Below the pieces are notes generated by a model. It was not told the DNA's origin. It made no database searches and saw only the letters and a program-made list of their open reading frames with translations. Below are positions 401 through 39,470 of a stretch of DNA of 43,825 nt, piece by piece (position 1 is the first letter of the stretch; each line of letters opens with the position of its first letter). This DNA is from Geodermatophilus chilensis (GTDB lineage: Bacteria > Actinomycetota > Actinomycetes > Mycobacteriales > Geodermatophilaceae). Made by a program: the position numbers and the translations under genes. The DNA is taken from positions 1 through 43,825 of the forward strand of contig NZ_NVPT01000019.1 of assembly GCF_002802985.1 (NCBI RefSeq). The letters are read 5' to 3'.

Positions 401-455
401 GGCCCCGTCCAAGGCACCGCCCCGAGCCGGCGAGGGGGTGGGGAGGACGAGGTCC
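401..455 (-). repeat. Dispersed 3'-end repeat, type A, copy 1
   Basis: The outer arms are GGCCCCGTCC at 401-410 and GGACGAGGTCC at 445-455. Read on the minus strand it starts about 4 bases after the stop of the ankyrin gene at 460. The right arm has one substitution that weakens the stem. It belongs to the family seen at 1330, 4900, 35850, 37345 and 39417 and probably acts as a terminator or 3' stabilising hairpin for the minus-strand gene. Confidence 0.7.
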
Positions 456-459
456 TTGC

Positions 460-1269
460 TCACTCCGTGGCGCCGCGCGCGACGAGCAGGTCGGCCAGGG
501 CGTCGTGCGCGGTCGCCTGACCTGCGTCGTCCCGGCGGCTGCGGGCCGCGGCGACCCGGCTGATGTCGAGGGCGCTGGCACCGTCGGCGGTGGTGGCGTT
601 GACGTCGGCGCCGGCGTCCAGCAGCTCGCGGATCACCTCGGGCGCGTCGCGGTCCCCGCCGGCGGACACGGCGGCGTGCAGCGGGGATCGACCGGTGTCG
701 GGGTCCCGCCGGTTGACGTCGGCGCCGGCGGCCAGCAGCAGGCGGACCAGCTCCAGCCGGGTGCTGCCCGCGGCGGCGTGCAGGGCGCCGCCGTCCGCGT
801 CGGCGCCCCGGTCCAGCAGCGTGCGGGCGCTGCCGGCGGCACCACCGGCCGCGGCGAGGGCCAGCAGGTCCACCCCCGTCACCGGGTCGGTCAGCGCGGC
901 GCCGCCGTCCAGCTCGGTGCGCAGCGCCTCGACGTCGTCGAGGTAGGCGGCGCTGGCGGCGTCCACCGGCGCGCCCAGCGCGCGCAGCAGCGGGACCAGC
1001 TCGGGCGCGGACTCCAGCGCGGTGTGCAGCGGGTCCCGGCCGTGCTCGGTCCGTGCGGAGAGGTCCGCGCCGGCCGCCACCAGCAGCCGGACGACGTCGA
1101 CGCGGCCCTCGGCGACGGCCACGTGCAGCGGCGTCCAGCCACCCTGGCCGTCGCGCTCCACCGTGGCGGTCAGCAGCCGGGGCGTCTCCTGGGCGGCGGC
1201 GCGGACGGCCTCGACGTCGCCGTCGGCGATCAGCCGGGCCAGCCGCGGGGCGGTCATGCGAGTGGTCAT
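460..1269 (-). CDS. Ankyrin repeat domain protein
   Basis: A 269-residue soluble protein with an ATG start. It is made almost entirely of ankyrin repeats. Repeats with the canonical TPLHVAVAEGRVDVVRLLVAAGA pattern (seen as GGWTPLHVAVAEG followed by a helix and LLVAAGADLSARTE) recur around residues 43-75, 76-105, 165-200 and 200-245. Two central repeats (about 105-160) are degenerate and lack the TPLH turn. There is no signal peptide, membrane segment or catalytic domain, so a protein-binding role is the only supportable statement. The gene is flanked by two type A 3' repeats, one after its own stop and one after the upstream permease pseudogene. Its partner is unknown. Confidence 0.85.
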   Translation of the reverse strand: MTTRMTAPRLARLIADGDVEAVRAAAQETPRLLTATVERDGQGGWTPLHVAVAEGRVDVVRLLVAAGADLSARTEHGRDPLHTALESAPELVPLLRALGAPVDAASAAYLDDVEALRTELDGGAALTDPVTGVDLLALAAAGGAAGSARTLLDRGADADGGALHAAAGSTRLELVRLLLAAGADVNRRDPDTGRSPLHAAVSAGGDRDAPEVIRELLDAGADVNATTADGASALDISRVAAARSRRDDAGQATAHDALADLLVARGATE

Positions 1270-1329
1270 GGGTGATCCCCGTTCCGGTCGGGAGGCGTCG
1301 TCGGGGTCTGTCGTGTCGACTCTTGCGGC

Positions 1330-1382
1330 GGCCCCGTCCCGGGTCCCGCCCTGAGCCTGCGAAGGGTGGGCAGGACGGGGCC
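1330..1382 (-). repeat. Dispersed 3'-end repeat, type A, copy 2
   Basis: The arms GGCCCCGTCC (1330-1339) and GGACGGGGCC (1373-1382) are perfectly complementary. On the minus strand it begins about 5 bases after the stop of the ABC permease remnant (1388). The interior carries the family motif GCAGGCTCAGGGCGGGACCC in minus orientation. Confidence 0.75.
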
Positions 1383-1387
1383 CTTCC

Positions 1388-2165
1388 TCAGACGACGTCG
1401 CGGCGGACGGCGAGCAGGGTGCCCAGCAGTGCCGCCACCAGACCGTAGCCGAGCAGCAGCAGACCGCCCTGCCACGGTTCGAGGAGGTCCGGCCCCTGGA
1501 ACGTCGCCGTCAGCGCTTCCAGTGCGCCGCCGGGCAGCCACTTGTAGGCGCCGGCGATCGCGCTGATCTGCCGGACGATCGACTCGACCACGAACAGGTA
1601 CACGAGCCCGCCGACGATCGCGCCCACCTGGTTGCGCACCAGAGCGCCGAGGCCGACGCCGATGACGGTGTGGACGACCAGGGCCAGACCACTGCTGGCG
1701 AGGACCCTCAGGTTGTCGCCGGTCAGTGCCGGCACCGCACCGCGCGCGCCGGCGGCCACGACCGCCACGCCGTAGTTCACCGCCACCACGACCAGCGCGA
1801 AGGGCACCGCGACCAGTGCGTAGGCGGTCAGCTTGGCGACGACGACCCGGCCGCGCCGGGGCGTGGTGAGGAACGTCGGCGTGGCCGTGCTGTTCCTGAT
1901 CCTGGGTCATCCCGATGATGCCCAGGATCAGGAACAGCACGGTGACGTTGGCGCCGATGGCCAGCACGAGTTGCTCGAACTGCTGCGTGCCGACGGGCGG
2001 GAGCCCGCCAGGGGGGCCGCCCTGGGTGCTGCCCGGTGTGCTGCCGGCGAACGAGGTGAAGAGCACCACGAAGCCGGCCACCAGCACACAGGCGCCCAGC
2101 AGCAGGCCGATCCAGACCCGGGTGGTGAACAGCTTGGTCTACTCGGCGCGGACGAGCGCGGTCAT
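1388..2165 (-). pseudogene. ABC-2 type transporter permease, inactivated
   Basis: This is the membrane half of the exporter encoded with the ATPase at 2162-3154. Its original ATG at 2165 overlaps that gene's stop as ATGA. Two independent lesions break it. Codon 9 is TAG (2141-2139), where the family has Trp (MTALVRAE-stop-TKLFTTRVW). The frame is also lost after LFLILGIIGMTQ near 1900. There the expected GEYRHGTATPTFLTTPRRGR motif is replaced by a reverse-complement copy of the preceding 22 bases, and the old frame resumes two bases out of phase as ATPTFLTTPRRGR. Downstream the frame is intact to 1388 and encodes several membrane helices (VVVAVNYGVAVVAAG, VHTVIGVGLGALV, AIVGGLVYLFVVES, LLLLGYGLVAALLGTLLAV). 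With these lesions no functional permease is expected unless both are sequencing artefacts. Confidence 0.85.
1885..1942. repeat. 22-bp perfect inverted repeat with 14-bp spacer inside permease pseudogene
   Basis: Bases 1885-1906 are the exact reverse complement of 1921-1942. The structure lies where the permease reading frame is broken. One arm reads naturally as the membrane helix VTVLFLILG; the other replaces the expected EYRHGT codons. It looks like an imperfect inverted repeat (CCTGGG...CCCAGG) that was extended by template switching. Confidence 0.9.
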
Positions 2166-3154
2166 CGGACGGCTCCCTGGGACGCGGCGTACTGCTCCTG
2201 GCCGGCGGTGAGCCGGAAGTACAGCTCCTCCAGGCCACTGGTCTCCGCGCGCAGCTCGTGCAGCTCCAGGCCGGCCCGGAAGGCCTGCGCGCCCACGGCG
2301 GGCGGCGTCGTCCCGGTCACCGTCACCCGGCCGTCCTCGCCGGGCGCGACCGTGAACCCGGCGGCCCCGAGGACCTCGGTCAGCCGCCCGGCCTCCGGGC
2401 TGCGCACCAGCACCGCCCCGCTGCCCTGCGCGCCGGAGCGCAGCTCGGTCAGCGAGCCCTCGCGGACCAGCCGCCCGGCGCCGACGATCACCACGCGGTC
2501 GGCGGTCTGCTCCATCTCGGCGAGCAGGTGGCTGGAGACCAGCACGGTGCGCCCCTCGTCGTGCGCCAGGTGGCGCAGGAAGCCGCGCAGCCAGTGGATG
2601 CCCTCGGGGTCCAGCCCGTTGGCCGGCTCGTCGAGCACCAGCACCGCCGGGTCGCCGAGCAGTGCGGTCGCCAGCGCCAGCCGCTGGCGCATGCCCAGCG
2701 AGTAGCCGCCCGCGCGGCGCCGGCCGGCGTCGGCCAGGCCGACCTGGGCGAGCACCTCGTCGGCGCGCGTGACCGGCAGGCGCGCGGCCCGGCAGTACAC
2801 CCGCAGGTGGTTGCGCCCGGACCGCGCCGGGTGGAACGCCGTCTCCAGCACCGCGCCGACCGTGCGCACGGGCGAGGGGAGGTCGGCGTAGGCGACGCCG
2901 TCGAAGGTCGCCGTCCCCGCGTCGGGGCGCTCCAGGCCCAGGACCATGCGCAGCGTGGTCGTCTTGCCGGCCCCGTTGGGGCCGAGGAAGCCGGTGACGG
3001 CGCCCGGCTCGACGGTGAAGCCGAGGCCGGAGACGGCGCGGACGGCGCCGAAGCTCTTGCTGAGGCCGCGGACCTCGACCCGCACGGGGTCGCGGCGGCG
3101 GCTGCTGCCGGGGTGGATGGCGCTCTCCTCGTGTCGGCCGGGCGACGGGTCCAT
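2162..3154 (-). CDS. ABC transporter ATP-binding protein (ABC-2 exporter type)
   Basis: A 330-residue ATPase. Walker A is GPNGAGKTTT near residue 58, the signature is YSLGMRQRLALATALLGDP near 150-168, Walker B is VLVLDEPANGLDPEG near 170-184, and the H-loop is SSHLLAEM. A C-terminal extension of about 100 residues is typical of the DrrA/CcmA-like drug or multicomponent exporters. It would drive export through the neighbouring permease, but that permease is a pseudogene, so the ATPase is probably orphaned and may be under relaxed selection. The ATG at 3154 gives an N-terminal tail of about 24 residues not typical of the family; a GTG at 3085 (VRVEVRGLSKSFG) fits family N-termini better. It is divergent from the universal stress gene. 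Confidence 0.88.
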   Translation of the reverse strand: MDPSPGRHEESAIHPGSSRRRDPVRVEVRGLSKSFGAVRAVSGLGFTVEPGAVTGFLGPNGAGKTTTLRMVLGLERPDAGTATFDGVAYADLPSPVRTVGAVLETAFHPARSGRNHLRVYCRAARLPVTRADEVLAQVGLADAGRRRAGGYSLGMRQRLALATALLGDPAVLVLDEPANGLDPEGIHWLRGFLRHLAHDEGRTVLVSSHLLAEMEQTADRVVIVGAGRLVREGSLTELRSGAQGSGAVLVRSPEAGRLTEVLGAAGFTVAPGEDGRVTVTGTTPPAVGAQAFRAGLELHELRAETSGLEELYFRLTAGQEQYAASQGAVR

Positions 3155-3247
3155 CCAAGCGCACCGGGCGGCCGAAACGGCACCCTCCGGTCCGCTTCGC
3201 GCGTGTCACGACGTGACCCCGGGCACACCCCTGACCGGCCCGTTCGG

Positions 3248-3797: not shown

Positions 3798-4876
3798 CGG
3801 CCCTGCCGTCCATCGGACCCGACGACCCCCCGGACGCACAGGACGCCCGGGAGGTCCTGGAGCGCCTGCTGCTCGGTGGCCCGCGGCGCTACACGCGGCT
3901 GCAGGTCGGCAGCATGGCCGGCATGCCGTCGGAGCGCACCCGGCGGCTGTGGCGGGCGCTCGGCTTCCCCGACGCCGCCGACGACGACCTGGTCTTCACC
4001 GACGCCGACGTCCAAGCGCTGGCCCTGCTCTCGGCGCTGATCGACACCGGCTTCGTCGACGAGGACTCCGAGGCCTCGATCGTCCGGGCGATGGCGCAGT
4101 CGCTGTCCCGCCTGGCCGACTGGCAGACCGACATGCTCGCCGACGTGCTCAGCCGGGGTGAGGAGACGGGGGCCGCACCGATCGACCCGGAGCGGGCGGT
4201 GGAGGGCACCCGCCGGCTGTTGCCGCTGCTGCGGGCGCTGCAGGACTACGTGTGGCGGCGCCACCTGGCCGCCAACGCCGGTCGACTGTCGGACAGCGTC
4301 GGCGGCGGGGACCGCCGGGAGCTCGCCGTGGGCTTCGCCGACCTGGTCGGCTACACCAGCCGCAGCCGGGGCATGGGTGGACGGGAGCTCGGCGAGATGG
4401 TCGAGGACTTCGAGAGCACCGCCAGCGAGGTCATCGCCCGCCACCACGGCCGGGTGGTCAAGACGGTGGGGGACGGCGTGCTCTACACCGCCGTCTCGGC
4501 GATCGACGCCGTGGAGATCGGGCTGGAGCTGCCCGAGGCCTGGCAGGCCGAGGACCGCCCGCCGCTGCGGGTGGGCGCCGCCTACGGCACCGTGCTGACC
4601 CACCTCGGCGACGTCTACTCCCCGGTGGTGAACCTGGCCAGCCGGCTCACCTCGCTCGCCCGGCCCGGCACCCTGCTGGTCGACCGGGACCTCGCCCGGC
4701 AGTTGCGCGGGCTGCCCCGCTATCGGGTGCGGCCGCTGCGCCGCGTGTCGGTGCGCGGCTACGACAACCTGCAGCCCTGGCTCGTGCAGCGCCGTCCGCC
4801 GGGGGAGGCCGACCTGGCGCTGGAGTCCATGCTCGACGAGATGGCCGACGACGTCCTGGAGGCGGACGACGAGTAG
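3794..4876 (+). CDS. Class III adenylate/guanylate cyclase with Rv1264-like regulatory domain
   Basis: The C-terminal half is a class III cyclase catalytic domain. Metal-binding Asp183 lies in FADLVGYT and Asp227 in KTVGDGVLY; the transition-state pair Asn280/Arg284 lies in VVNLASRL (numbering from 3794). The N-terminal half (YTRLQVGSMAGMPSERTRRLWRALGFP onward) resembles the MerR-like, pH-responsive regulatory domain of mycobacterial Rv1264 (Ad_Cy_reg). No membrane segments are seen, so the enzyme is cytosolic. The likely reaction is ATP to cAMP. The start is unusual: homology extends upstream of the first ATG (3914), and the only candidate close to the stress-gene stop is CTG at 3794, forming CTGA. 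An acidic tail ends the protein. Confidence 0.82.
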   Translation: MTALPSIGPDDPPDAQDAREVLERLLLGGPRRYTRLQVGSMAGMPSERTRRLWRALGFPDAADDDLVFTDADVQALALLSALIDTGFVDEDSEASIVRAMAQSLSRLADWQTDMLADVLSRGEETGAAPIDPERAVEGTRRLLPLLRALQDYVWRRHLAANAGRLSDSVGGGDRRELAVGFADLVGYTSRSRGMGGRELGEMVEDFESTASEVIARHHGRVVKTVGDGVLYTAVSAIDAVEIGLELPEAWQAEDRPPLRVGAAYGTVLTHLGDVYSPVVNLASRLTSLARPGTLLVDRDLARQLRGLPRYRVRPLRRVSVRGYDNLQPWLVQRRPPGEADLALESMLDEMADDVLEADDE

Positions 4877-4878
4877 GA

Positions 4879-4999
4879 GGACCCCTGCCCCCCGCGCTCG
4901 GCCCCGTCCAGGGCACCGCCCTGAGCCGGCGAACGGCGGTGAGGACGGGGTCCTTCCACGAGCGGTGGGGAGGAGGGGGTCCTTCCACTGCAGGGGGCC
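4879..4999 (+). repeat. Dispersed 3'-end repeat, type B, with a type A copy nested inside
   Basis: The outer arms GGACCCCTGC (4879-4888) and GCAGGGGGCC (4990-4999) begin 3 bases after the cyclase stop. Between them lies an inverted type A copy (4900-4953). The arrangement suggests insertion of one element into another, or a built-up concentric hairpin. Confidence 0.65.
4900..4953 (-). repeat. Dispersed 3'-end repeat, type A, copy 3 (nested)
   Basis: The arms are GGCCCCGTCC (4900-4909) and GGACGGGGTCC (4943-4953). Its orientation is opposite to the upstream cyclase gene, unlike the other copies, and it lies inside the type B arms at 4879/4990. The rest of 4877-5129 shows no gene. Confidence 0.7.
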
Positions 5000-5129
5000 G
5001 CCCGTCCTCCCCACACGTCGCACGCTCGGAGACGCCCTGGAGGTGGCCGGGAGGTCGGCGACCTCGCCCCGGTGGTGGGACCGATACCCGGTCGCGCCGT
5101 CCCGGCGCGGCTTGGCACCCTGGTGCCCC

Positions 5130-6767
5130 GTGAGTGCCACGCTCGTCGCCCGCGGCCTGGCCGCCGGCCACGGTGCCCGCGTCCTCTTCTCCGACCTCGA
5201 CCTCGTCGTCGCCCCCGGCGACGTCGTGGGGCTGGTCGGGGTCAACGGCGCGGGCAAGTCCACCCTGCTGCGCACGCTGGCCGGTGAGCTGCCCGCCGAG
5301 TCGGGCAGCGTGACCGTCAGCCCGCCGACCGCGACGCTCGGGTACCTGCCGCAGGAGCACGAGCGCCGGCCGGGGGAGACGGTCCGGCAGGCGCTGGCCC
5401 GCCGGACCGGGGTCGCCGCCGCGCAGGCCGCGCTGGACGCCGCCACCGACGCGCTCACGACGGGGGCGGACGGCGCCGACGACGCCTACGCCGAGGCCCT
5501 GGAGCGCTGGCTGGCCCTCGGCGGGGCCGACCTCGACGAGCGCGCGGCGCAGGTCGTCGGCGAGGTGGCCTCCGGGGTGTCCCTCGACGCGACGACGACC
5601 GGGCTGTCCGGAGGGCAGGCCGCGCGGGTCGGGCTGGCCGGCCTGCTGCTCTCGCGCTACGACGTCCTGCTGCTCGACGAGCCGACCAACGACCTCGACC
5701 TGGCCGGGCTGGAGCAGCTGGAGCGCTTCGTCACCGGGGCGCGCAGCGGCATCGTCGTGGTCAGCCACGACCGGGAGTTCCTCGCCCGCACGGTGACCCG
5801 CGTGGTGGAGCTGGATCTGGCCCAGCAGCTGGTGCGGGTGCACGACGGCGGCTACGAGGCCTACCTGGTCGAGCGGGAGGTGGCCCGGCGGCACGCCCGC
5901 GAGGAGTACGAGGAGTACGCCGAGACGAAGGCGGACCTCGAGGCCCGGGCCCGCATGCAGCGCAACTGGCTGGCCAAGGGCGTGCGGGACGCGGTGAAGA
6001 AGCAGAAGGACCCGGACAAGTTCATCAAGGCCCACAACCGGGCGACGGCGGAGAAGCAGGGGGCCAAGGCCAAGCAGACCGAGCGGCGGATCGAGCGGCT
6101 GGAGGTGGTCGAGGAGCCGCGCAAGGAGTGGGAGTTGCGGATGGAGATCGCCGCCGCGCCGCGTGCCGGGGCGGTCGTCGCCACGCTGTCCGGCGCGGTC
6201 GTGCGCCGCGGGGACTTCACCCTCGGGCCGGTCGACCTGCAGGTGGACTGGGGAGACCGGGTGGTCGTCACCGGTCCCAACGGCAGCGGCAAGTCCACGC
6301 TGCTGGCCGCCCTGCTCGGCCGGGTGCCGCTGGACGGGGGCCGCGGCGGGCTGGGCCCGTCGGTGCGGATCGGTGAGATCGACCAGGCCCGCGGGGCCTT
6401 CCTGGGCGCCGAGCCGCTGCTGGAGGCCTTCGCCGCGGAGGTGCCCGACCGGCCGACCGCCGAAGTGCGCACCCTGCTGGCCAAGTTCGGGCTGACCGCC
6501 GAGCACGTACTGCGCCCGGCCGGCACCCTCTCGCCGGGGGAGCGGACCCGGGCCGGGCTGGCGCTGTTGCAGGCCCGCGGGGTCAACGTGCTGGTCCTCG
6601 ACGAGCCGACCAACCACCTCGACCTGCCCGCCATCGAGCAGCTCGAGCAGGCGCTGGCCGGCTACCGCGGCACGCTGCTGCTGGTCACCCACGACCGGCG
6701 GATGCTGGCCGCCGTCGACACCCCCCGCCGGATCACCGTCGAGGACGGCCGGGTCACCGAGCGCTGA
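5130..6767 (+). CDS. ABC-F family ATPase (ribosome-associated, no membrane domain)
   Basis: A 545-residue protein with two ABC ATPase domains and no membrane segments. Domain 1 has Walker A GVNGAGKST (about residue 38), signature LSGGQAARVGL (about 160) and Walker B LLLDEPTNDLDL. Domain 2 has GPNGSGKST (about 383), LSPGERTRAGLALLQ and VLVLDEPTNHLDL. The linker between them (about 260-345) is long, charged and helical (KGVRDAVKKQKDPDKFIKAH onward), like the P-site tRNA interaction motif of ABC-F translation factors. Family members rescue stalled ribosomes or give resistance to ribosome-targeting antibiotics; subfamily cannot be assigned. The GTG at 5130 gives the usual SATLVARGLAAGHG opening. 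The 3' end overlaps the convergent gene by 14 bases. Confidence 0.88.
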   Translation: MSATLVARGLAAGHGARVLFSDLDLVVAPGDVVGLVGVNGAGKSTLLRTLAGELPAESGSVTVSPPTATLGYLPQEHERRPGETVRQALARRTGVAAAQAALDAATDALTTGADGADDAYAEALERWLALGGADLDERAAQVVGEVASGVSLDATTTGLSGGQAARVGLAGLLLSRYDVLLLDEPTNDLDLAGLEQLERFVTGARSGIVVVSHDREFLARTVTRVVELDLAQQLVRVHDGGYEAYLVEREVARRHAREEYEEYAETKADLEARARMQRNWLAKGVRDAVKKQKDPDKFIKAHNRATAEKQGAKAKQTERRIERLEVVEEPRKEWELRMEIAAAPRAGAVVATLSGAVVRRGDFTLGPVDLQVDWGDRVVVTGPNGSGKSTLLAALLGRVPLDGGRGGLGPSVRIGEIDQARGAFLGAEPLLEAFAAEVPDRPTAEVRTLLAKFGLTAEHVLRPAGTLSPGERTRAGLALLQARGVNVLVLDEPTNHLDLPAIEQLEQALAGYRGTLLLVTHDRRMLAAVDTPRRITVEDGRVTER

Positions 6768-7386
6768 GCACCCGTTCCCCGAGGGCGGCGGCGACCGCCG
6801 TCGCGAGCTCCTCCGGCGTCGCGCCGGCCGGGGACAGCGCCGGCAGCAGGTGCACCTCGACGACGGCGCCCGGCGCGGCGGCCAGCCAGCGCATCGCCGC
6901 CACCGTCGAGCGGCCGGCCGGGGGTGGCGTCGCCGTCCCGCGCCAGCGGAGCGCGATCGGGCACACCGCGGCCCCGGCGTCCAGCGCCGCGGCGAGCAGG
7001 GCGGCGTCGGCGCGGCAGGTGCTCACCGGCGTCCCGGCGCGCAGCGCCGCGCCGACCCGTGCCGGGTCGGCCGGCAGGGCCGGCAGCGGGACGCCGGCGA
7101 GCCGGTCGGGAGCGCCGGCGAGGGCGGCCCCGGGGACGACGGTGAGCAGCGCCAGCGGGTCGAGTGCGGTGACGTCGTCGGACACCAGCAGCGGGCCGGT
7201 GCCGGTGCGCGGCCAGGCGGTCGCCGGGGCGCGGACCTCGACCCGCACGCCGAGGCCGGTCAGCACCCGGGCGGCGCCGCAGACGGTGCGGCTGCGGCGG
7301 CGGCCGACCGGCGGGCGGAGCCGGCCGGCGGCGACGGTGGCGCCCACGCGGAACCAGGTGGGGGTGGGTGCGGTCGGTGCGGTCAC
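6754..7386 (-). CDS. Acyltransferase (PlsC)-like protein lacking catalytic motifs
   Basis: A 210-residue protein. Its C-terminal half (AALDAGAAVCPIALRWRG and VVEVHLLPALSPAGATPEEL) matches the layout of actinobacterial 1-acylglycerol-3-phosphate acyltransferases. The catalytic HX4D motif should fall at LLVSDDVTALDPLAL, but the His position is Asp71 (D-VTAL-D76). The later FPEGT motif is replaced by VSTCRADAA. The hydrophobic N-terminal anchor is short. Third-position GC is high and the frame is clean, so it is not a recent pseudogene. It is probably a catalytically inactive paralogue with a binding role, or an early-stage relic. The 3' end overlaps the ABC-F gene tail by 14 bases on the opposite strand. 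Confidence 0.65.
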   Translation of the reverse strand: MTAPTAPTPTWFRVGATVAAGRLRPPVGRRRSRTVCGAARVLTGLGVRVEVRAPATAWPRTGTGPLLVSDDVTALDPLALLTVVPGAALAGAPDRLAGVPLPALPADPARVGAALRAGTPVSTCRADAALLAAALDAGAAVCPIALRWRGTATPPPAGRSTVAAMRWLAAAPGAVVEVHLLPALSPAGATPEELATAVAAALGERVLSAR

Positions 7387-21366: not shown

Positions 21367-23463
21367 GTGAGCGAGACCACCGACCTCGTCACCGCGCCGC
21401 AGGGCGCAGGCCCCGACGAGGCACCTGCCGCTTCTGGGACGACGGGCCGCACCCGTCGCCGCGGCAGCGGGCTCTCCGGCATGCTGCTGCCCGAGCTGCA
21501 GCGACTGGCCGCCGAGCTCGGCATCTCCGGCACCGGCCGGATGCGCAAGGGCGACCTGGTCGCCGCCATCTCCGCCCGTCAGGTGGGCGAGGGCTCGACC
21601 CCGCCCGCCAACGGCACCTCCGCCATCCCGGCGGCCCGCGAGGCCGAGGCCCCGCGTCCGGCCGCCGCCACGGCCCAGCCGGTCGAGGCCCCCGTCAGCG
21701 GGGGCGCGAACGGCGGGCCGGTCACCGCGCCGGCCGAGGCCGGCAGCGACGCCGCACCCCGGCGCCGCCGCGGGGCCAGCCGCCCCGCCGGGTCGCCGTC
21801 CGCCGAGGGTGCCGCCCCCGCCGGTGAGGCCGCCACCTCGGCGCCCGAGCCGCGGGTCGAGACCCCGACCGTCGACGGCGCCGCCACCGACACCTCCGCC
21901 CCGGCCCGCGAGGGCACCGAGGGCGGCACCGACGGCGAGCGCGCCGAGGGCGACCGTCCGCAGCGCAACCGCGACCGCAACCGCAACCGCGGCGAGCGGG
22001 ACGCCGGTGAGCGTGGCAACCGGGACAACGGCCGCGACGGCGGCGACCGGGCCGAGCGCGGCAACCGCAACGACCGCGACGCCAACCGGCCCGAGCGGGA
22101 CGGCAACCGTGGTCCCGACCGCACCGAGCGCGGCGGCCGGCCGGAGAACCGCAACGACAACCGGAACGACCGCCCCACCGACCGCGGCAACGACCGCAGC
22201 GACGAGGACGACGACGACTTCGAGGGTGGTCGCGGCCGCCGGGGCCGCCGTTACCGGGATCGCAACCGCCGCGGCAACAACCGCGCAGAGCGGTTCGACC
22301 AGAACGAGCCGACCGTCAGCGAGGACGACGTCCTGCTGCCGGTCGCCGGGATCCTCGACGTGCTCGACAACTACGCGTTCGTCCGCACCTCCGGGTACCT
22401 GACCGGCCCGAACGACGTCTACGTGTCGCTGTCGCAGGTGCGCCGCTACGGCCTGCGTCGCGGCGACGCCATCACCGGCGCCGTCCGCCAGCCCCGCGAG
22501 GGCGAGCGCAAGGACAAGTACAACGCGCTGGTCCGGCTGGACACGGTCAACGGCCTGGAGCCCGAGCAGGCCCGGCAGCGCCCGGAGTTCACCAAGCTGA
22601 CCCCGCTCTACCCGCAGGAGCGCCTGCGGCTGGAGACCGAGCCGCACCAGCTGACCACCCGGGTCATCGACCTGGTCATGCCGATCGGCAAGGGCCAGCG
22701 TGCGCTCATCGTGTCGCCGCCCAAGGCCGGCAAGACGATGGTGCTGCAGTCGATCGCCAACGCGATCACGACCAACAACCCCGAGTGCCACCTCATGGTC
22801 GTCCTCGTCGACGAGCGACCCGAGGAGGTCACCGACATGCAGCGCTCGGTGAAGGGCGAGGTCATCGCCTCGACCTTCGACCGGCCGCCGTCGGACCACA
22901 CCACGGTCGCCGAGCTGTCCATCGAGCGGGCCAAGCGGCTGGTCGAGATGGGCCACGACGTCGTCGTCCTGCTGGACTCGATCACCCGCCTGGGCCGCGC
23001 CTACAACCTGGCGGCCCCCGCCAGCGGGCGCATCCTCTCCGGTGGTGTCGACTCCACGGCGCTCTACCCGCCCAAGCGCTTCCTCGGCGCCGCCCGCAAC
23101 ATCGAGAACGGCGGCTCGCTCACGATCATCGCCTCGGCGCTGGTCGAGACCGGTTCCACGATGGACACGGTCATCTTCGAGGAGTTCAAGGGCACCGGTA
23201 ACGCGGAGATCAAGCTGGACCGCCGCCTGGCGGACAAGCGGGTCTTCCCGGCCGTCGACGTCAACGCGTCGGGTACGCGCAAGGAGGAGATCCTCATGTC
23301 GCCCGACGAGCTGGCCATCGTCATCAAGCTGCGCCGGGTGCTCGCCGCGCTCGAGCCGCAGCAGGCGCTGGAGCTGCTGCTCGACAAGCTGCGCAAGACG
23401 CGCAACAACATCGAGTTCCTCATGCAGATCCAGAAGACGACCCTGGGCCCCGGCAACGACTGA
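21367..23463 (+). CDS. rho: Transcription termination factor Rho
   Basis: A 698-residue hexameric RNA helicase that terminates transcription; E. coli Rho has 419. The N-terminal Rho-N helix domain ([20 protein letters not shown], about 38-70) is followed by a disordered insert of about 220 residues. The insert is Ala/Pro-rich at first, then an Arg/Asn/Asp/Gly-rich stretch (about 195-310, for example [19 protein letters not shown]). The RNA-binding cold-shock-like domain starts at [20 protein letters not shown]. The ATPase has Walker [10 protein letters not shown] (about 451), Walker [16 protein letters not shown] and the arginine-finger region. GTG 21367 follows a good ribosome site. Such inserts are usual in actinobacterial Rho and bind RNA. 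A type B 3' repeat begins 1 base after the stop. Confidence 0.96.
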
Positions 23464-23521
23464 GGACCCTCCTGCCCCCCGACCCTCGCTGGCGCTCGGG
23501 CCGGGACCCTGCAGGAGGGCC
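23464..23521 (+). repeat. Dispersed 3'-end repeat, type B, copy after rho
   Basis: The left arm GGACCCTCCTGC starts right after the rho TGA, and the right arm GCAGGAGGGCC is at 23511-23521. The stem is complementary over 9 bp. Its arm sequence differs from other copies, but pairing is kept. The rest of 23522-23656 shows no gene. Confidence 0.7.
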
Positions 23522-23656
23522 GTTCCAGCCCCTCACCGTCGGCCGGGCTCGCGCGTCAGGGATACTGAGCGACTGAGCCCCGCTGCGCGACCGGAATGAC
23601 CGGCCGGCCGCCGGCGTTCGACCACCTGAACGGCACAGACCACCGGAAGAGGCGAC

Positions 23657-25072: not shown

Positions 25073-25929
25073 ACGCCCGTCTCCTGCTGACCGGCGCGGC
25101 ACGGCGGCTCGCCGACGCCGGCGTCGAGTCGCCACGGGTGGACGCCGAGCTGCTGCTCGCCCACGTCCTCGGCGTTCCGCGCACCGGCCTGCTCACCCTC
25201 GGCGAGGTGCCGGACGACGCCGTCGCCCGCTTCGAGGCCCTCGCCGGGCAGCGCGCCGACCGGGTGCCGCTGCAGCACCTCACCGGCCGTGCTCCGTTCC
25301 GTCACCTGGAGCTGGCGGTCGGCCCCGGTGTCTTCGTGCCGCGACCGGAGACCGAGCAGCTCGTCGAGTGGGCGCTGGCGCGGCTGGCCGGGGTCGCCGA
25401 GCCGGTCGTCGTCGACCTCGGCAGCGGTTCGGGCGCCATCGCGCTGTCGATCGCCCACGAGCACCCCGGCCCGCGGGTCACCGCCGTCGAGCACGACCCG
25501 GTCGCGATCGAGTGGACGAGGGCAAACGCCGCTGCGCGGGCCGCCGCGGGGGACCGGCCGGTCGAGGTCCTGGCCGGCGACATGACCGACCCCGGCCTGC
25601 TCCGGGAGCTCGACGGCGCGGTGGACCTCGTCGTCTCCAACCCGCCGTACGTCCCCGACGGCGCGACGGTGCCGCGCGAGGTGGCCGACCACGACCCGCC
25701 GCTGGCGCTGTGGGGCGGCCCCGACGGCCTCGACGTCGTCCGCGGGCTGCTGCGCACCGCCGCCCGGCTGCTGCGGCCCGGCGGCGGGCTCGGCATCGAG
25801 CACGCCGACCAGCAGGGGAGTGCGTTGCCGGCGCTGGTGCGCGCCTCCGGCGGCTGGACCGGCGTCGAGGACCACCCCGACCTGGCCGGCCGGCCGCGGT
25901 ACACGACCGCGCACCGAGCCGGGGGATGA
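25069..25929 (+). CDS. prmC: Release factor glutamine methyltransferase
   Basis: This enzyme N5-methylates the GGQ glutamine of RF1/RF2. About 286 residues from CTG 25069: [20 protein letters not shown] then [15 protein letters not shown], the normal PrmC N-terminus. No ATG or GTG exists before GTG 25138, which would delete the first helix, so CTG within CTGA (overlapping the prfA stop) is the best start. SAM motif I is [20 protein letters not shown], and the catalytic NPPY is [11 protein letters not shown] (Asn191). The stop overlaps the next ATG as ATGA. Confidence 0.92.
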
Positions 25930-26585
25930 CAGACTCGCCGCTCGTGGCCGACGTCTACGACTGCTCCGACCCCGACGCCCGCGCCGCCGGGCTGGACGCC
26001 GCCGCGGCGGCGATCGGCCGGGGCGAGCTGGTGCTGATGCCCACCGACACCGTCTACGGCGTCGCCGCCGACGCCTTCACCCCGCCGGCGGTCGCCGCGC
26101 TCCTGGCGGCGAAGAACCGCGGCCGCACGATGCCGGTCCCGGTGCTCATCGGCGAGGCCTCCACCCTCGTCGGGCTGGTCACCGTCGTCCCGCCGGTGGC
26201 GACGACGCTGGCCGAGGCGTTCTGGCCCGGGGGGCTGACCCTCGTCCTCGAGCACGCGGCGTCCCTGGCCTGGGACCTGGGGGACGCCGAGGGCACCGTC
26301 GCGGTCCGGCTGCCGGACGACGAGGTCGCCCGCGACCTGCTGCGGCGCACCGGCCCGCTCGCCGTCTCCAGCGCCAACCGCTCGGGCCGACCGGCCGCGA
26401 CCACCGCCGAGGAGGCCGTCGCCCAGCTCGGCACTCACGCCGCCGTCGTCCTGGACGGCGGACCGCGCGCCGGGAGCGCGGCGAGCACGATCGTCGACTG
26501 CACGGTGCCGGCCCCGCGGGTGCTGCGGGTCGGCGCGATCCAGGTCGACCGGCTGCGCGAGGTCGTCCCCGAGATCGTCGACTGA
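25926..26585 (+). CDS. tsaC: L-threonylcarbamoyladenylate synthase (Sua5/YciO/YrdC)
   Basis: A 219-residue protein making threonylcarbamoyl-AMP from threonine, bicarbonate and ATP for the t6A37 modification of tRNA. It has core motif MPTDTVYGVAADAF, nucleotide-binding KNRGRTMPVPVLIGE, and SSANRSGRPAATTAEEA. It lacks the C-terminal Sua5 domain, so it is the short YrdC-type form. It overlaps prmC by four bases; the trio prfA-prmC-tsaC is a conserved operon. Three tandem 3' repeats follow the stop. Confidence 0.94.
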   Translation: MTDSPLVADVYDCSDPDARAAGLDAAAAAIGRGELVLMPTDTVYGVAADAFTPPAVAALLAAKNRGRTMPVPVLIGEASTLVGLVTVVPPVATTLAEAFWPGGLTLVLEHAASLAWDLGDAEGTVAVRLPDDEVARDLLRRTGPLAVSSANRSGRPAATTAEEAVAQLGTHAAVVLDGGPRAGSAASTIVDCTVPAPRVLRVGAIQVDRLREVVPEIVD

Positions 26586-26589
26586 AAGA

Positions 26590-26635
26590 GGACCCCCTGC
26601 CGCTCGCGAGCTCGCGGCGGGACCCTGCAGGGGGC
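26590..26635 (+). repeat. Dispersed 3'-end repeat, type B, copy after tsaC
   Basis: The arms GGACCCCCTGC (26590-26600) and GCAGGGGGC (26627-26635) pair over 8-9 bp. It begins 4 bases after the tsaC stop. The interior is CGCTCGCGAGCTCGCGGCGG, itself a strong inner stem. Confidence 0.7.
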
Positions 26636-26769
26636 GGCCGCCACCCATGTTGCGCAGGCTCAGGGCGGGACCCTGCAGGGTGGCCGTTCCCGTACGTCAC
26701 CAGGCGCGCGGCGGGACCCTGCAGGGGGCCGCGGTCTCCCACTCCCCGCAGGCTCAGGACGGGGTCGGG
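26636..26769 (+). repeat. Tandem type B repeat copies, partly degenerate
   Basis: Second copy: arms CCACCC (26641-26646) and GGGTGG (26678-26683), with the family core GCAGGCTCAGGGCGGGACCC. A third right-hand end is at 26709-26732 (GGGACCCTGCAGGGGGCCG) and a partial core at 26748-26766. Together with 26590-26635 these fill the 265-bp gap before the wecA promoter. Nothing else is seen there. Confidence 0.6.
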
Positions 26770-26804
26770 CGCCGCCGATCCCGGTGGGCCGGGGGTCGGA
26801 GCGA

Positions 26805-34300: not shown

Positions 34301-35815
<1,515 letters not shown>

Positions 35816-35819
35816 AGGA

Positions 35820-35925
35820 GGACCACCCTTCCCCCCATGCCTCGTCGAAGGACCCCGTCCTCCCCACCCCTCGCAAGCTCAGGGCGGGACCCGGGACGGG
35901 GCCAGCGGGGCCCTGGAGGGTGGCC
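35820..35925 (+). repeat. Nested 3'-end repeat after atpD (outer arms)
   Basis: The left arm GGACCACCCTTCC (from 35820) and right arm GGAGGGTGGCC (35915-35925) pair nearly perfectly and enclose a full type A copy at 35850-35903. It begins 4 bases after the atpD stop. A small GGCCCC/GGGGCC hairpin, probably a further derivative, follows at 35954-35971. Confidence 0.65.
35850..35903 (+). repeat. Dispersed 3'-end repeat, type A, copy 4 (nested)
   Basis: The arms GGACCCCGTCC (35850-35860) and GGACGGGGCC (35894-35903) flank the core CGCAAGCTCAGGGCGGGACC. It lies inside the outer arms 35820/35915. Confidence 0.75.
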
Positions 35926-35987
35926 GTTCCAGGACGTCACCTGGCTCAGCGCGGGCCCCTGCAGCGGGGCCGTTTCAGCACCGCCGA

Positions 35988-36021
35988 GAACGGCCGGGTC
36001 CCCAACGGGACCCGGCCGTTC
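35988..36021 (+). terminator. Strong hairpin downstream of atpD
   Basis: A perfect 15-bp stem (35988-36002 with 36007-36021) with loop CAAC is followed by GTGTTTCC. It probably ends the atpB-D transcript, leaving the small ORF and atpC with their own promoters. Confidence 0.8.
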
Positions 36022-36071
36022 CGTGTTTCCGGCCCGTGCGGCGGGTAGCCCCGCCGCGGTGGCCCGGACGG

Positions 36072-36347
36072 GTGTTCGTGGTGCGGGTCGCCTCAAGGGC
36101 TCCTCGCCCCGTGCCGATCTGGTGCGAGGACGCCCGGACCAGCTGGGCGACGATCGGGAGCGACGACGTGGACGGCAGCACCGGGACCCGGGTGGACGGC
36201 GCTGACTGGAGCTGGCCGCCGTCGGCGGCCGTGCCCTACGTCGGGGGCCGGCAGTTCCACACCGAGGACTGGGCGCCGGCCTCGACCGTGCGCCGTCCCT
36301 GGGTCCGCGTGGGCCGCTGGACCCTGCTGTACCGCCGCTGCGCCTGA
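36072..36347 (+). CDS. Small Trp-rich hypothetical protein between atpD and atpC
   Basis: An unrecognised frame of about 91 residues from GTG 36072, or 78 from GTG 36111 (VPIWCEDARTSWATIGSDDV). It is coding-like: almost every codon from 36111 on ends in G or C, unlike the surrounding repeats. It is rich in Trp (WCED, SWAT, DWSWPP, EDWAP, RPWVRVGRW) and ends GRWTLLYRRCA. There is no signal or membrane segment. It sits after a terminator and before a degenerate 3' repeat that begins right after its stop, as other genes here do, which supports a real gene. Function unknown; no link to ATP synthase can be claimed. Confidence 0.5.
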   Translation: MFVVRVASRAPRPVPIWCEDARTSWATIGSDDVDGSTGTRVDGADWSWPPSAAVPYVGGRQFHTEDWAPASTVRRPWVRVGRWTLLYRRCA

Positions 36348-36352
36348 AGAAC

Positions 36353-36405
36353 GATCCCTCCTCCCCACCCTTCGCGAGCTCGGGACGGTGCCCGGCAGGG
36401 GGCTG
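36353..36405 (+). repeat. Degenerate 3'-end repeat after small ORF
   Basis: GATCCCTCCTCCCCACCC, then TTCGCGAGCTCGGGACGGTG and CCCGGCAGGGGGCTG. It follows the family layout, but the outer arms no longer pair well. It begins about 6 bases after the stop of the small ORF. Confidence 0.5.
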
Positions 36406-36510
36406 GGCGGGGATCGGGCGGGTGCGCCACTAGAGTGGAGGTGACCCGTCGCCGTGTCCACCCCGGACGTGGCGACCCGTACCGCCGGTCGGTGGACCCC
36501 GAGGAGTGTC

Positions 36511-36900
36511 GTGGCGACCCTGCATGTCGAGTTGGTGGCCGTCGAGCGGATGATCTGGTCCGGCGAGGCCAGCATGGTCGTGGCCCGCACGACCGAGGGT
36601 GAGCTCGGCGTCCTGCCCGGCCACGCGCCGCTGCTGGGCCAGCTCGCCGATGGCGGCGTGGTCACCGTCCGCACCGTCGAGGGCGAGGACATGGTCGTGG
36701 CGGCCCACGGCGGCTTCCTGTCGGTCACCGACCGCGGCGTCTCGATCCTCGCCGAGACCGCGGAGATCTCCTCCGAGATCGACGTCGAGCGGGCCCGCGA
36801 GGCCCTGCGCCGGGCGGAGGACGCCGGGGACGACCCCGACGCCCTCGCCGCCGCCAAGCGCGCCCAGTCGCGGCTGCGCGCCGCGGGTCAGGACGCCTGA
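36511..36900 (+). CDS. atpC: F0F1 ATP synthase subunit epsilon
   Basis: A 129-residue F1 subunit that couples and inhibits the rotor. GTG 36511, preceded by GAGGAG, gives [20 protein letters not shown], the normal epsilon N-terminus; an earlier GTG at 36454 would add 19 atypical residues. The beta-sandwich core is [20 protein letters not shown], and the C-terminal helices are [20 protein letters not shown] onward. A TAGAGT box at about 36433 may be its promoter. It is separated from atpD by 695 bases, while most genomes keep atpD-atpC adjacent. Confidence 0.95.
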
Positions 36901-36936
36901 GCCGCCGACGTCCCGCCTGGCCGCCCGGTGCCCCCG

Positions 36937-37341
36937 ATGACGACCGAACTGCTCCTCCTGGTCGCCGTGGGGGTCCTCGTCGGGCTGGTCGTGGCCTTCC
37001 TGCTGCGCCGCCGTTTCCTGCTCTCCGGGCTCGGCGCGGTCACCATGTGGCTGCGCCCGTCCGGCTCGCCGCGCTGGTCGGTGGGTGTGGCCTGGTACGG
37101 CGGCGACTCGCTGCTCTGGTACCGCGCGCTGTCGCTGTCGGTGCGCCCGCAGCAGCGGCTGTGCCGTGCGGAGGTCCAGGTGCAGGGACGGCGCCGCGCG
37201 GGGGCGTCGGACGTCGCCCTGCCCGACGACGTCGTCGTCGTCTCCTGTGCCACCGCGGCCGGCCCCCGCGAGCTGGCCATGGACTCCTCCACGGTGACGG
37301 GTTTCCTCTCCTGGGTGGAGTCCGCGCCGCCGGTGCGGTGA
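36937..37341 (+). CDS. DUF2550 family membrane protein
   Basis: A 134-residue protein. One N-terminal membrane helix (LLLLVAVGVLVGLVVAFLLR, about 5-26) is followed by a compact domain (GAVTMWLRPSGSPRWSVGVA, WYGGDSLLWYRALSLSVRPQ) of the actinobacterial DUF2550 family that regularly sits just after atpC. Start ATG 36937 chosen; GTG 36928 would add three residues. Function unknown. A type A 3' repeat begins right after the stop. Confidence 0.85.
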   Translation: MTTELLLLVAVGVLVGLVVAFLLRRRFLLSGLGAVTMWLRPSGSPRWSVGVAWYGGDSLLWYRALSLSVRPQQRLCRAEVQVQGRRRAGASDVALPDDVVVVSCATAAGPRELAMDSSTVTGFLSWVESAPPVR

Positions 37342-37344
37342 AAG

Positions 37345-37398
37345 AGACCCCGTCCTCCTCACCGCTCGCAAGCTCGCGGCGAGCCTCTGGACGGGGCC
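37345..37398 (+). repeat. Dispersed 3'-end repeat, type A, copy 5
   Basis: The arms AGACCCCGTCC (37345-37355) and GGACGGGGCC (37389-37398) begin about 4 bases after the DUF2550 stop. A degenerate type B end (GGGACCCTGTAGCGGCCG) occupies 37420-37437, next to the stop of the convergent adenosyltransferase gene. So each of the two facing genes has its own element. Confidence 0.75.
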
Positions 37399-37439
37399 AG
37401 CCCGGGACGCGGGCGCGGTGGGACCCTGTAGCGGCCGCC

Positions 37440-38045
37440 TCAGTCCTCGCGGGCCGCGCGCTGGGCGTGGGCGCCGCTGTGCGCGCCGGGCTCCCAGAGC
37501 ACGTCACCGCCGGGGTTGGCCACCCGGGCGAGGATGAACAGCAGGTCCGAGAGCCGGTTGAGGTAGCGCGCGGTCTCGGCGTTGGTGCGCTCGCCGTCGG
37601 CCTCCAGCAGCGCCCACACGCTGCGCTCGGCCCGTCTCGTGACGACGCGGGCCTGGTGCAGCAGCGCGGCCAGCGGCGTGCCCCCGGGCAGGATGAAGCT
37701 GGTCAGCTTGGGCAGCTCGGCGTTGTACGTGTCGCAGGCCGCCTCGAGCCGCTCGGTGTAGGCGGCGGTGACCCGCAGCGGCGGGTACTGCGGGTCCGGG
37801 GTGACCGGCGTGGAGAGGTCGGCGCCGACGTCGAACAGGTCGTTCTGCACGCTGCGCAGCAACTCGGTGAGCTCCGGGCTCGGCGACCCGAGGGCCAGCG
37901 CCACACCGAGCACGCTGTTGGCCTCGTCGACGTCGGCGTACGCCGCCAGGCGCGGGTCGGTCTTCGCCACCCGGCTCATGTCCCCGAGGTGCGTCTGGCC
38001 GGCGTCGCCGGTCTTGGTGTAGATGCGGGTCAGCCGGACGGTCAT
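37440..38045 (-). CDS. Cob(I)yrinic acid a,c-diamide / cob(I)alamin adenosyltransferase, PduO type
   Basis: A 201-residue enzyme that makes adenosylcobalamin from cob(I)alamin and ATP. It has the N-terminal ATP-binding stretch TRIYTKTGDAGQTHLGDM, core AYADVDEANSVLGVALALG, and helices RRAERSVWALLEADGERTNA and YLNRLSDLLFILARVANPGG, typical of the PduO family. It is divergent from murA with a 56-base gap. The B12-dependent mutase at 39898 is 1.9 kb away, so it may supply that enzyme's cofactor; this is inference from proximity. Confidence 0.92.
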   Translation of the reverse strand: MTVRLTRIYTKTGDAGQTHLGDMSRVAKTDPRLAAYADVDEANSVLGVALALGSPSPELTELLRSVQNDLFDVGADLSTPVTPDPQYPPLRVTAAYTERLEAACDTYNAELPKLTSFILPGGTPLAALLHQARVVTRRAERSVWALLEADGERTNAETARYLNRLSDLLFILARVANPGGDVLWEPGAHSGAHAQRAARED

Positions 38046-38089
38046 GCCCGGAGCCTAGGTGGTCCGGCGGCCGGGGCAGGGCGCCACCG

Positions 38090-38095
38090 TAGGGT
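38090..38095 (+). promoter_or_regulatory. Leaderless -10 box of murA
   Basis: TAGGGT, six bases, then GTG 38102. The spacing predicts transcription from the start codon itself. There is no ribosome site. Confidence 0.6.
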
Positions 38096-38101
38096 GGACC
38101 G

Positions 38102-39379
38102 GTGGAGTGCTTCGACGTCACCGGCGGTTCGGCCCTGACCGGGCGGGTGCGGGTGACCGGCGCCAAGAACAGCGCCCTCAAGCTCATGGCGGCCGCGCTG
38201 CTGGCCGCCGGGCGGACCACCATCGACGAGGTCCCCGACATCCTCGACGTGGCGATCATGAGCGAGGTGCTGCGCCGGCTCGGCTGCGAGGTCACCTACG
38301 AGCGGCACCCGCAGGGCGGTGGCGGCCGGCTCGTCGTCGACGTGCCCGACGAGCCCTCCACGGAGACCGACTACGACCTGGTCCGCCGGATGCGCGCCTC
38401 GATCAGCGTGCTCGGCCCGCTCGTCGCCCGGTGCGGCTCGGCCAAGGTGGCGCTGCCGGGCGGCGACGCGATCGGCTCGCGCGGCCTGGACATGCACATC
38501 TCCGGCCTGGAGCGGCTCGGCGCCACCATCAAGAGCGAGCACGGCTTCCTGGTGGCCACCGCGCCGCGGCTGGAGGGCACCAGCATCTGGCTGGACTTCC
38601 CGTCGGTCGGAGCGACCGAGAACCTGGTCATGGCCGCGGTGCTCGCCGAGGGGACGACGGTCATCGACAACGCCGCGCGCGAGCCGGAGATCGCCGACCT
38701 CTGCGCGATGCTCACCGCGATGGGCGCGCAGATCGACGGCGCGGGCACCTCGACCATCATCGTCGACGGGGTGCCGGCGCTGCATCCGGTCACCTGCACG
38801 ACCGTGCCGGACCGGATCGTGGCCGGCACCTGGGCCATCGGCGCGGTGATGACCCGCGGGGACGTCGTCATCGAGCGGGCGGTCGCCGACCACCTCACCG
38901 TGGCGCTGGCCAAGCTCAGCGACGCCGGGGCGCACGTCGAGCCGCTGCCCGACGGGCTGCGGGTGGCGATGGACGGCCGCCCGCGCTGCGTGGACGTCGT
39001 CACGCTGCCCTACCCCGGCTTCCCGACCGACCTCCAGCCGATGGCGGTCGCGCTGGCCGCGGTCTCCACCGGCACGGCGCTGATCACCGAGAACGTGTTC
39101 GAGGGTCGGTTCATGTTCGTCAACGAGCTGGTCCGGCTGGGGGCCTCGGTGCGCACCGACGGCCACCACGCCGTCGTCCGGGGCCGCGAGCGGCTCTCCA
39201 GCGCGCCGGTGCTGGCCACCGACATCCGCGCCGGCGCCGGGCTGGTGCTGGCCGGGCTGGTCTCCGACGGCGTCACCCAGGTGCAGGACGTGCACCACGT
39301 CGACCGCGGCTACCCCGACTTCGTCGAGCAACTGCGCGGCCTGGGCGCGCAGATCGAGCGGGTGCAGCGACCCGACTGA
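38102..39379 (+). CDS. murA: UDP-N-acetylglucosamine 1-carboxyvinyltransferase, Asp active-site form
   Basis: A 425-residue enzyme that adds enolpyruvate to UDP-GlcNAc, the first committed step of peptidoglycan synthesis. It opens [27 protein letters not shown], with the usual KN pair. The fosfomycin-reactive Cys (Cys115 in E. coli) is Asp122 here, in [19 protein letters not shown]. This is the substitution found in mycobacterial MurA that gives natural fosfomycin resistance. Other core motifs are intact ([45 protein letters not shown]). Leaderless GTG start. Length normal. Confidence 0.95.
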
Positions 39380-39416
39380 ACGGCCCTCGTGCAGGGGCTC
39401 GAGCCGAGCGGTCGAA

Positions 39417-39470
39417 GGACCCCGTCCTCCTCACCCCTCGCACGCTCGGGGCGAGCCTCGGGACGGGGCC
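39417..39470 (+). repeat. Dispersed 3'-end repeat, type A, copy 6
   Basis: The arms GGACCCCGTCC (39417-39427) and GGACGGGGCC (39461-39470) lie 37 bases after the murA stop, between murA and the convergent DUF2007 gene whose stop is at 39475. A degenerate type B start (GGCCCTCGTGCAGGGG) directly follows the murA stop. Confidence 0.75.

Follow-up and report, generated by a model that had tools for sequence, protein, structure and literature searches.

A hairpin repeat family behind stop codons in Geodermatophilaceae, probably a REP-like mobile DNA element

The hairpins dispersed over a 43,825-nt stretch of the Geodermatophilus chilensis genome (GCF_002802985.1, contig NZ_NVPT01000019.1, forward strand, positions 1-43,825; hereafter the window) probably belong to a REP-like, short and non-autonomous mobile DNA element that has spread within the family Geodermatophilaceae. 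This reading is based on the presence and absence of copies between species, their nesting, their copy number, and their restricted host range, and it favors the replicating REP/MITE-like element among the options proposed in the initial annotation.

A covariance model (R1) was built from the repeat copies and applied to the window with a threshold of E < 0.01. The repeat was present at the places annotated before (at least ten dispersed copies), and R1 gave 11 copies. On the minus strand, copies at 399-457 (69.3 bits) and 1328-1385 (80.4 bits) lay 2 nt past the stops of the called minus-strand genes 460-1257 and 1388-1807, respectively. On the plus strand, copies were found at the stop of rho (21481-23463, with Rho domains; copy 23463-23522, 54.9 bits), 2 nt past the TGA of a small ORF at 36111-36347 (36350-36406, 49.2 bits), 1 nt past the TGA of a DUF2550 gene at 36937-37341 (37343-37400, 75.1 bits), and 35 nt past the stop of a murA-like gene at 38102-39379 with an EPSP-synthase domain (39415-39472, 82.9 bits). 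The last copy sits within a remnant (39382-39411) of another copy, recognised against genome G025. A plus-strand array begins 2 nt past the TGA of the called gene 25926-26585 (26588-26638, 41.9 bits) and continues with a weak, partial twelfth match (26640-26676, 17.6 bits, E 0.39) and a third copy (26724-26778, 27.6 bits, E 0.0013). Two overlapping pairs were nested copies. Directly past the TAG of a cyclase-domain gene (3914-4876), an outer plus-strand copy (4879-4999, arms located) is split by an inner antisense copy (4898-4955, minus strand, 74.4 bits); past the TGA of atpD (34379-35815, domain-supported), a loop-split outer copy on the plus strand (35820-35925, arms located) holds an inner plus-strand copy in its loop (35848-35905, 84.7 bits). 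An additional low-scoring plus-strand copy was located at 4993-5050 (24.2 bits, E 0.0089). The earlier description of copies lying close past stops in the orientation of the gene needs two qualifications for the 11 copies: 4898-4955 is antisense, and those starting at 35848, 39415, 26724, and 4993, each nested in another copy or following one in an array, are 32-138 nt away from the stop.

The copies are imperfect hairpins with a GG-A-CC foot, an 8-bp outer stem, a 3-bp stem, an A.C mismatch, and a 4-bp inner stem carrying a 10-nt loop, with ACCC unpaired on the 3' side; the predicted folds were strong. The shared core described previously is present and was corrected to the loop TCGCNNGCTC on an inner stem that itself covaries. 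The bulged A, the A.C mismatch, ACCC, and the loop are conserved, whereas the arms vary between copies and stay complementary within a copy, as had been claimed. In three alignments the paired arms co-varied beyond shuffled and slid controls. Among 40 copies, 93.6% of 668 cells were paired versus 86.4% in shuffles and at most 59.9% in slid versions, and two-sided changes occurred in 35 cells versus 7.0 and at most 9, respectively; on each of five covariation measures, 0 of 500 shuffles reached the observed value. Inferring selection on a sense RNA from this covariation was unsupported, since G-U cells were not above C-A cells. The outer stem had 18 G-U and 14 C-A cells (p 0.60), with no bias to either strand, and the inner stems had 19 and 42 (p 0.004), opposite to the direction of RNA selection; alternative registers may be the source of this C-A excess. 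An Rfam scan of the window gave no family above the gathering score except the tRNA, and 35800-36420 gave two sub-threshold matches only (E 0.045 and 0.86).

The analysis was extended to the own genome and relatives. R1 indicated at least 159 copies in the Geodermatophilus genome, with only 150 candidates scored; the extrapolated copy number may be high because the stretches sampled were pre-selected for matches or came from large contigs in the match lists. Searching this genome with a 20-nt core pattern, three mismatches being allowed, gave 167 matches versus 1 for the reversed pattern. The repeat was detected in 34 of 37 Geodermatophilaceae genomes, with three genera giving no match, and in 0 of 24 genomes from other families. 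Across the order, 54 genomes were positive, 51 of them Geodermatophilaceae; the others (G125, G134, and G209) had one or two matches each. In 22 outgroup loci the model matched nothing, even with E allowed up to 1. The repeat family is mostly restricted to soil bacteria of one family, where it occupies hundreds of sites, chiefly right after stop codons or within older copies.

Positions relative to genes were taken from several samples: own-genome set 1 (R1 scan; 42 of 49 rows kept, E < 0.01), own-genome set 2 (stretches picked for holding matches; 69 of 71 kept, one copy cut at the stretch end and one antisense duplicate being dropped), a sample drawn from large contigs in the match lists, and a congener set (54 of 61 non-window rows kept, seven with E > 0.01 dropped). 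Between two called genes, 80 of 90 own-genome copies were sense to the upstream gene and 10 were antisense. The nearest copy lay at -2 to +3 of the gene end in 53 of 76 ends, and a copy at -2 to +5 was observed in 46 of 67 ends versus 9.4 expected. Neither gene-random matches nor a lack of covariation, named beforehand as the contrary outcome, occurred. Of 94 cases behind TGA genes, 53 had the foot GGACC beginning exactly 4 nt past the stop (8/18, 12/20, 17/29, and 16/27 in four sets); the listing of junctions and feet retained 49 of 53 rows, four having no recognisable foot. Overlap with a called gene was seen for none of the 42 set 1 copies and for 5 of the 69 in set 2. Divergent gaps held 1 of 42 set 1 copies, though they make up 13,835 of 48,355 intergenic bases, and 6 of 54 congener copies. 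The copy between cobO and murA (15 loci compared, 10 of them chosen for having a match there) does not follow a stop codon and stands directly past the letters GAGCCTAG, as expected if the target is a sequence and not translation. T-R-R was found within 8 nt upstream of 13 of 44 copies without a called stop, against a background of 6.3%; this target motif is weak, a lead partly explicable by missed genes.

When eight window sites were compared with six congeners, occupancy differed between species. Site S3 is near-clean empty in G008 (TGA-GGGAACCCG), as compared with TGA-copy-GGGACNAACCCG in G024 and G016, and no target-site duplication was seen by eye at this single inspected site. At most sites, divergence of the flanks prevented an empty site from being delimited exactly. 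The copy at site S6 is intact in G003 and loop-interrupted in the window, G024, G025, and G016. A strict search for nesting returned 20 distinct candidates, about three of them doubtful; younger copies are thus lodged in the loops of older copies. A GNNG tetranucleotide often stood 2 nt from the stem before inner copies, in 24 of 32 pattern-matched copies (seven of which were not nested: two chance, five stop-adjacent) and in 12 of the 20 strict candidates; exact GTAG/GTGG preceded 10 and 2 of them, respectively.

A mobiliser was sought in several ways. PF01797, the classical REP transposase domain (Y1/RAYT), was absent from the own genome (0/1) and, in a separate search that recovered the domain in 5 of 14 known genomes, from all Geodermatophilaceae genomes covered (0/57). 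The TnpB zinc ribbon PF07282 was absent from the own genome. IS110 (PF01548) had seven matches there, and no repeat copy was near IS110 in four loci around the best four of these, by which IS110 is not excluded. No transposase-like gene was recognised by eye among ten copy-flanked genes, and two ORF listings yielded no autonomous copy. Whatever mobilises the repeat, it is no recognisable Y1 (PF01797) transposase. The missing mobiliser, the weak target motif, the diverged flanks at most sites, the occupancy of some sites across species or genera, and the 10 antisense copies among 90 count against a mobile element, and neither an excision nor a fresh insertion was seen.

An unlikely, though better-placed, alternative is a functional 3'-UTR RNA hairpin that terminates transcription or stops 3'-5' exonucleases once Rho has acted, kept for its host gene and hence found behind stops. 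The prevalent sense orientation, the near-absence of set 1 copies from divergent gaps, and the strong folds and covariation are in line with it, as is the rho-end site, occupied in 7 of 7 genomes (the window and all six congeners). The atpD end speaks against it. Of 58 loci, 56 were usable, with "without copy" defined as no R1 match at E ≤ 1e-4, and an R1 match near the atpD stop was found in 17; a few loci without a match, such as L133 and L135, apparently have copies that went unscored. A separate hairpin past atpD (GGCCGGG...CCCGGCC; 35992-36017, plus strand, in the window), not itself a repeat copy, was detected in all 39 loci that lack a match and in 16 of the 17 that have one, and was displaced further from the stop where a copy was present. 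The pattern used tolerates one mismatch, and its first match overlaps the element in L110, L114, L127, and L146; in L110 and L127 the separate hairpin can be seen farther along. At atpD, a conserved hairpin follows the copy, which is therefore not the sole 3' hairpin between or behind the stop and it, so that the proposed terminator function was unsupported at the one site compared in many species. No T-tract terminator consensus was found in 35700-36520, which contains three window copies (the separate hairpin was not called either). The wobble counts and the six congener copies in divergent gaps also disagree with an RNA function, which hardly accounts for nested copies. The hairpin may or may not act as a 3' stabiliser.

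Still less probable is an old, immobile repeat inherited vertically, whose arms are kept complementary by gene conversion between copies or by hairpin-templated repair (quasi-palindrome correction), without a selected function. At site S4 and at cobO-murA the same sites carry arms that differ between species and remain complementary, and the outer stem lacks a wobble bias to either strand, both of which speak for this explanation. Occupancy across species or genera at the rho end and cobO-murA would likewise suit an old feature passed down vertically and maintained by selection or gene conversion. However, templated repair should erase the conserved unpaired features, and nested insertions and between-species presence/absence remain unaccounted for. 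Palindromes arising by chance from very high GC content, suggested by 812 inverted-repeat pairs in the window, are refuted by the reversed-pattern, outgroup, and covariation controls and have a negligible probability.

The mobile-element reading places the repeat beside known REPs. GTAG-tagged REPs with RAYT/TnpA-REP transposases are hairpins in hundreds of short copies, mainly in unidirectional or convergent gaps and near 3' ends, and also in arrays (PMC2817692, PMC3733652, PMC6006769). They resemble the Geodermatophilaceae repeat in hairpin, copy number, 3'-end location, and arrays, and perhaps in the GNNG that often stands before inner copies. They differ in that the repeat occurs without PF01797 (57/57 genomes), has exact GTAG/GTGG only in 10/32 or 2/20 inner copies, and shows a conserved-mismatch stem, a 10-nt loop, and a consistent sense orientation. 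REPINs are mobile-DNA hairpins with common compensatory changes (PMC3116915); they are inverted REP doublets tied to RAYT, whereas the present repeat is a single asymmetric hairpin for which RAYT was not found. CGTC-tagged REPs apparently lack a dedicated transposase and occur near gene 3' ends (PMC3733652), as does our repeat; their tag, sequence, and hosts differ, and no CGTC head was evident in the listed junctions. Intrinsic terminators share a GC-rich hairpin past stops but not the missing T tract at 35700-36520 or the variable occupancy, and at atpD the repeat adds to another hairpin. A MITE would be expected to have conserved terminal inverted repeats and a target-site duplication; here the arms vary between copies, and inspection of S3 by eye showed no duplication. 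For REPs, 3'-end position, mobility, and compensatory changes were already reported; new are this repeat family, its host group, the absence of a known mobiliser, the fixed distance from TGA, and the nested copies.

For a mobile element, we propose that an enzyme would recognise the hairpin in single-stranded DNA and insert it beside a short strand-specific target, namely TGA at gene ends or CG/TG in the loop of a resident copy. Copies landing within genes would be lost by selection, leaving stop codons as the main surviving sites, and any influence on RNA 3' ends would be secondary. More tentatively, stop codons could themselves be landing sites, with a non-Y1 enzyme joining a structured single strand at a fixed distance from TGA (foot 4 nt downstream) or in a resident loop. 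The insertion marks (TGA+4 and loop nesting) are precise enough to seek the enzyme and probe its target choice. The best-known REPs are tied to RAYT; here hundreds of copies occur in a lineage in which this domain was not found. Strong covariation behind genes, usually taken as RNA function, can arise from mobile DNA. If landing at stop codons is true, the spread would be nearly harmless to these bacteria, because every gene has a single target that tolerates insertion, and older copies serve as safe harbours.

The initial annotation had described a family of hairpin repeats in this contig, and the copies that it listed were confirmed to be present in the window. The consensus of the repeat was 5' RR-GG-A-CCCCGTCC-T-C-CCC-A-CCCC-TCGCNNGCTC-GGGG-C-GGG-NCCC-G-GGACGGGG-CC 3', in which the loop, a bulged A, an A.C mismatch, and the CCC strand were unpaired yet largely conserved, and covariation was present in the outer, middle, and inner stems. 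In a first alignment of 40 copies (own-genome loci and the window; structure drawn by hand), 93.6% of 668 cells were paired, whereas slid versions reached 59.9% at most. Two-sided changes numbered 35 against 7.0 in shuffles, the covariation score was 0.192 against 0.074, and none of 500 shuffles reached the observed values on any measure. Because the structure had been derived from the same 40 copies, two further sets were counted with the covariance model R1. The own-genome set (49 matches in 435 kb, E up to 1) was 91.9% paired with 85 two-sided cells, and the 58-locus set (85 matches at E up to 1e-4) was 92.6% paired with 209 two-sided cells, both alignments being fitted to the model and hence biased towards its structure. 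Fifty-seven of the 58 loci bear Geodermatophilaceae names; the other, L165 from a Frankiales MAG, had no match. Slid versions of both alignments were less than 54% paired; in the 58-locus set, one of five measures was reached by 5 of 500 shuffles and the other four by none. The proposal that the arms remain complementary within a copy was thus borne out, with covariation above the shuffled and slid controls in three alignments.

Some copies carried a tail, GTTCCAGCACGTCACC. With up to three mismatches, this tail gave 60 matches in the own 435 kb and six congener regions, against 19 for the reversed control; 23 of the 60 lay immediately 3' of GGCC, and the remaining ones, many within genes, look like chance matches. 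Head-to-tail arrays with a unit of about 46 bp, consisting of the tail plus the right half of the repeat, were observed in two fetched loci (L206, 13357-13570; L097, about 6630-6890).

The claimed placement at stop codons also held when distances were checked using gene calls from our own codon-usage script alone: the nearest sense copy lay at -2 to +3 nt for 53 of 76 gene ends. Thirteen of the 23 remaining ends had their nearest copy 20-39 nt away, and most of these copies, judged by eye, are inner members of nested pairs. For gene ends with a known gap, 46/67 had a copy at -2 to +5, where uniform placement predicts 9.4. In the own genome, 86 of 111 copies were intergenic and sense to the upstream gene (80/90 after removal of copies at stretch edges); among 54 congener copies, the antisense ones were six in divergent gaps and two in tandem gaps. 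The spacing from stop to GGACC was 4 nt in 25/49. A looser foot-plus-arm scan gave 4 nt after TGA in 8/18, 12/20, 17/29, and 16/27 of four sets, the first two of which overlap with the 49-copy set, and 2 or 5 nt after TAG in 13/18. As controls, one comparable hairpin was found among 249 outgroup gene ends, and GG[AG]CC occurred 54 times against 3-18 for five motifs of similar composition.

The own genome (5.51 Mb in 374 contigs, the window being one of them; near relatives, Geodermatophilus siccatus and G. poikilotrophus) had at least 159 repeat matches, with 150 candidates scored. Outside the window, 31 R1 matches at E<0.01 were found in 391 kb, which extrapolates to approximately 440 copies per genome, perhaps too high a value given the choice of contigs. 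A perfect 49+49-bp palindrome at the extreme contig end (43728-43825) is probably an assembly artefact. The repeat occurred in 34 of 61 genomes of relatives, namely 34/37 Geodermatophilaceae (9 of 12 genera) and 0/24 from other families; order-wide, 54 of 298 genomes were positive, 51 of them Geodermatophilaceae. No R1 match at E up to 1 was obtained in 22 outgroup loci (L168-L189). Three genomes from other families of the same order (G125, G134, and G209) had one or two matches each (best E 1.8e-13 to 1.6e-11), reflecting either transfer or contamination.

In a comparison of eight sites of the window with their counterparts in six congeners, the rho end (gene assigned by domains) carried a copy in 7/7 genomes, with differing arms, and occupancy of the other sites differed. 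At site S3, G008 had TGA-GGGAACCCG, whereas G024 and G016 had TGA-[copy]-GGGACNAACCCG; at site S6, G003 has an intact copy, and the loop of the copy is interrupted in the window, G024, G025, and G016. Strict criteria applied to all the DNA retrieved gave 20 distinct candidate copy-in-copy cases with complementary outer arms, about three of them doubtful, and GNNG preceded the inner AAGG/GAGG foot in 12 of the 20. At 39379-39475, G024, G016, and G003 carry about 1.1 kb that the window, G025, G008, and G013 lack; BLAST matches suggest that this segment is a gene similar to the one with a cyclase domain at 3914-4876.

The atpD end could be compared in 56 loci. A GGCCGG..CCGGCC hairpin distinct from the repeat was matched 3' of atpD in 39/39 loci without an R1 match near the stop (E up to 1e-4) and in 16/17 with one; a few of the 39 seem to carry unscored copies, and in four loci (L110, L114, L127, and L146) the first hairpin match, with one mismatch allowed, overlaps the element. 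It started at 13-40 nt in 36 of the 39 (61-74 in three) and at 54-116 nt in 14 of the 16, the exceptions being L117 (267 nt) and L118 (14 nt, its copy further downstream). Since the hairpin is further from the stop when a copy is present, the repeat forms an added segment that in most loci separates the stop from the hairpin. No T-tract terminator was called at 35700-36520, neither for the repeat copies nor for this hairpin. A small ORF (36111-36347, 78 aa) that separates atpD from the ATP synthase epsilon gene had no Pfam match; with 51 tblastn rows across the 58 loci, it is apparently conserved within Geodermatophilaceae.

An apparently old site lies where the cobalamin adenosyltransferase and murA-like genes diverge: in 13 of 16 sequences (15 loci, 10 of them chosen for having a match, plus the window), a copy or nested copies directly follow GAGCCTAG or a near variant, the exceptions being the window, L131, and L117. 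We read GAGCCTAG as a putative -10 box of the opposite gene. The arms of these copies differ among sequences with compensation. At 38045-38102 and in orthologues, divergent genes have TAGGCT-/TAGGGT-like boxes few bases from their starts, which in our reading may resemble leaderless promoters; many relatives carry a copy between these genes.

Selection on a sense RNA should favour G-U over C-A cells. With kinship of the sequences ignored, the outer stem had 18 G-U and 14 C-A (p 0.60), and the inner stems 19 and 42 (p 0.004), opposite to the RNA expectation. These counts, an indirect measure, fit a DNA structure better than a sense RNA. Among candidate mobilisers, IS110 is present in the own genome, but no repeat was found in the four loci flanking its top matches. 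The Y1/RAYT transposase domain PF01797 was absent from the own genome and 57 Geodermatophilaceae genomes, and the TnpB zinc-ribbon PF07282 from the own genome. Spread of the repeat by insertion is well supported, with an enzyme and a target rule that we infer.

PMC3733652 places REPs mostly between unidirectional and convergent genes, less than 20 bp from 3' ends, and describes GTAG termini that often provide TAG stops and CGTC REPs seemingly without a dedicated transposase. Compensatory changes are described as frequent in REPIN hairpins in PMC3116915, and, in PMC6006769, the Actinobacteridae sampled had Y1 genes of subclass 1.1 only. The best-known REP class has a RAYT, whereas none was found for the Geodermatophilaceae repeat. 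No description of the latter was found in the open-access literature searched, and we judge it to be a REP-like hairpin family that is new by sequence and host group.
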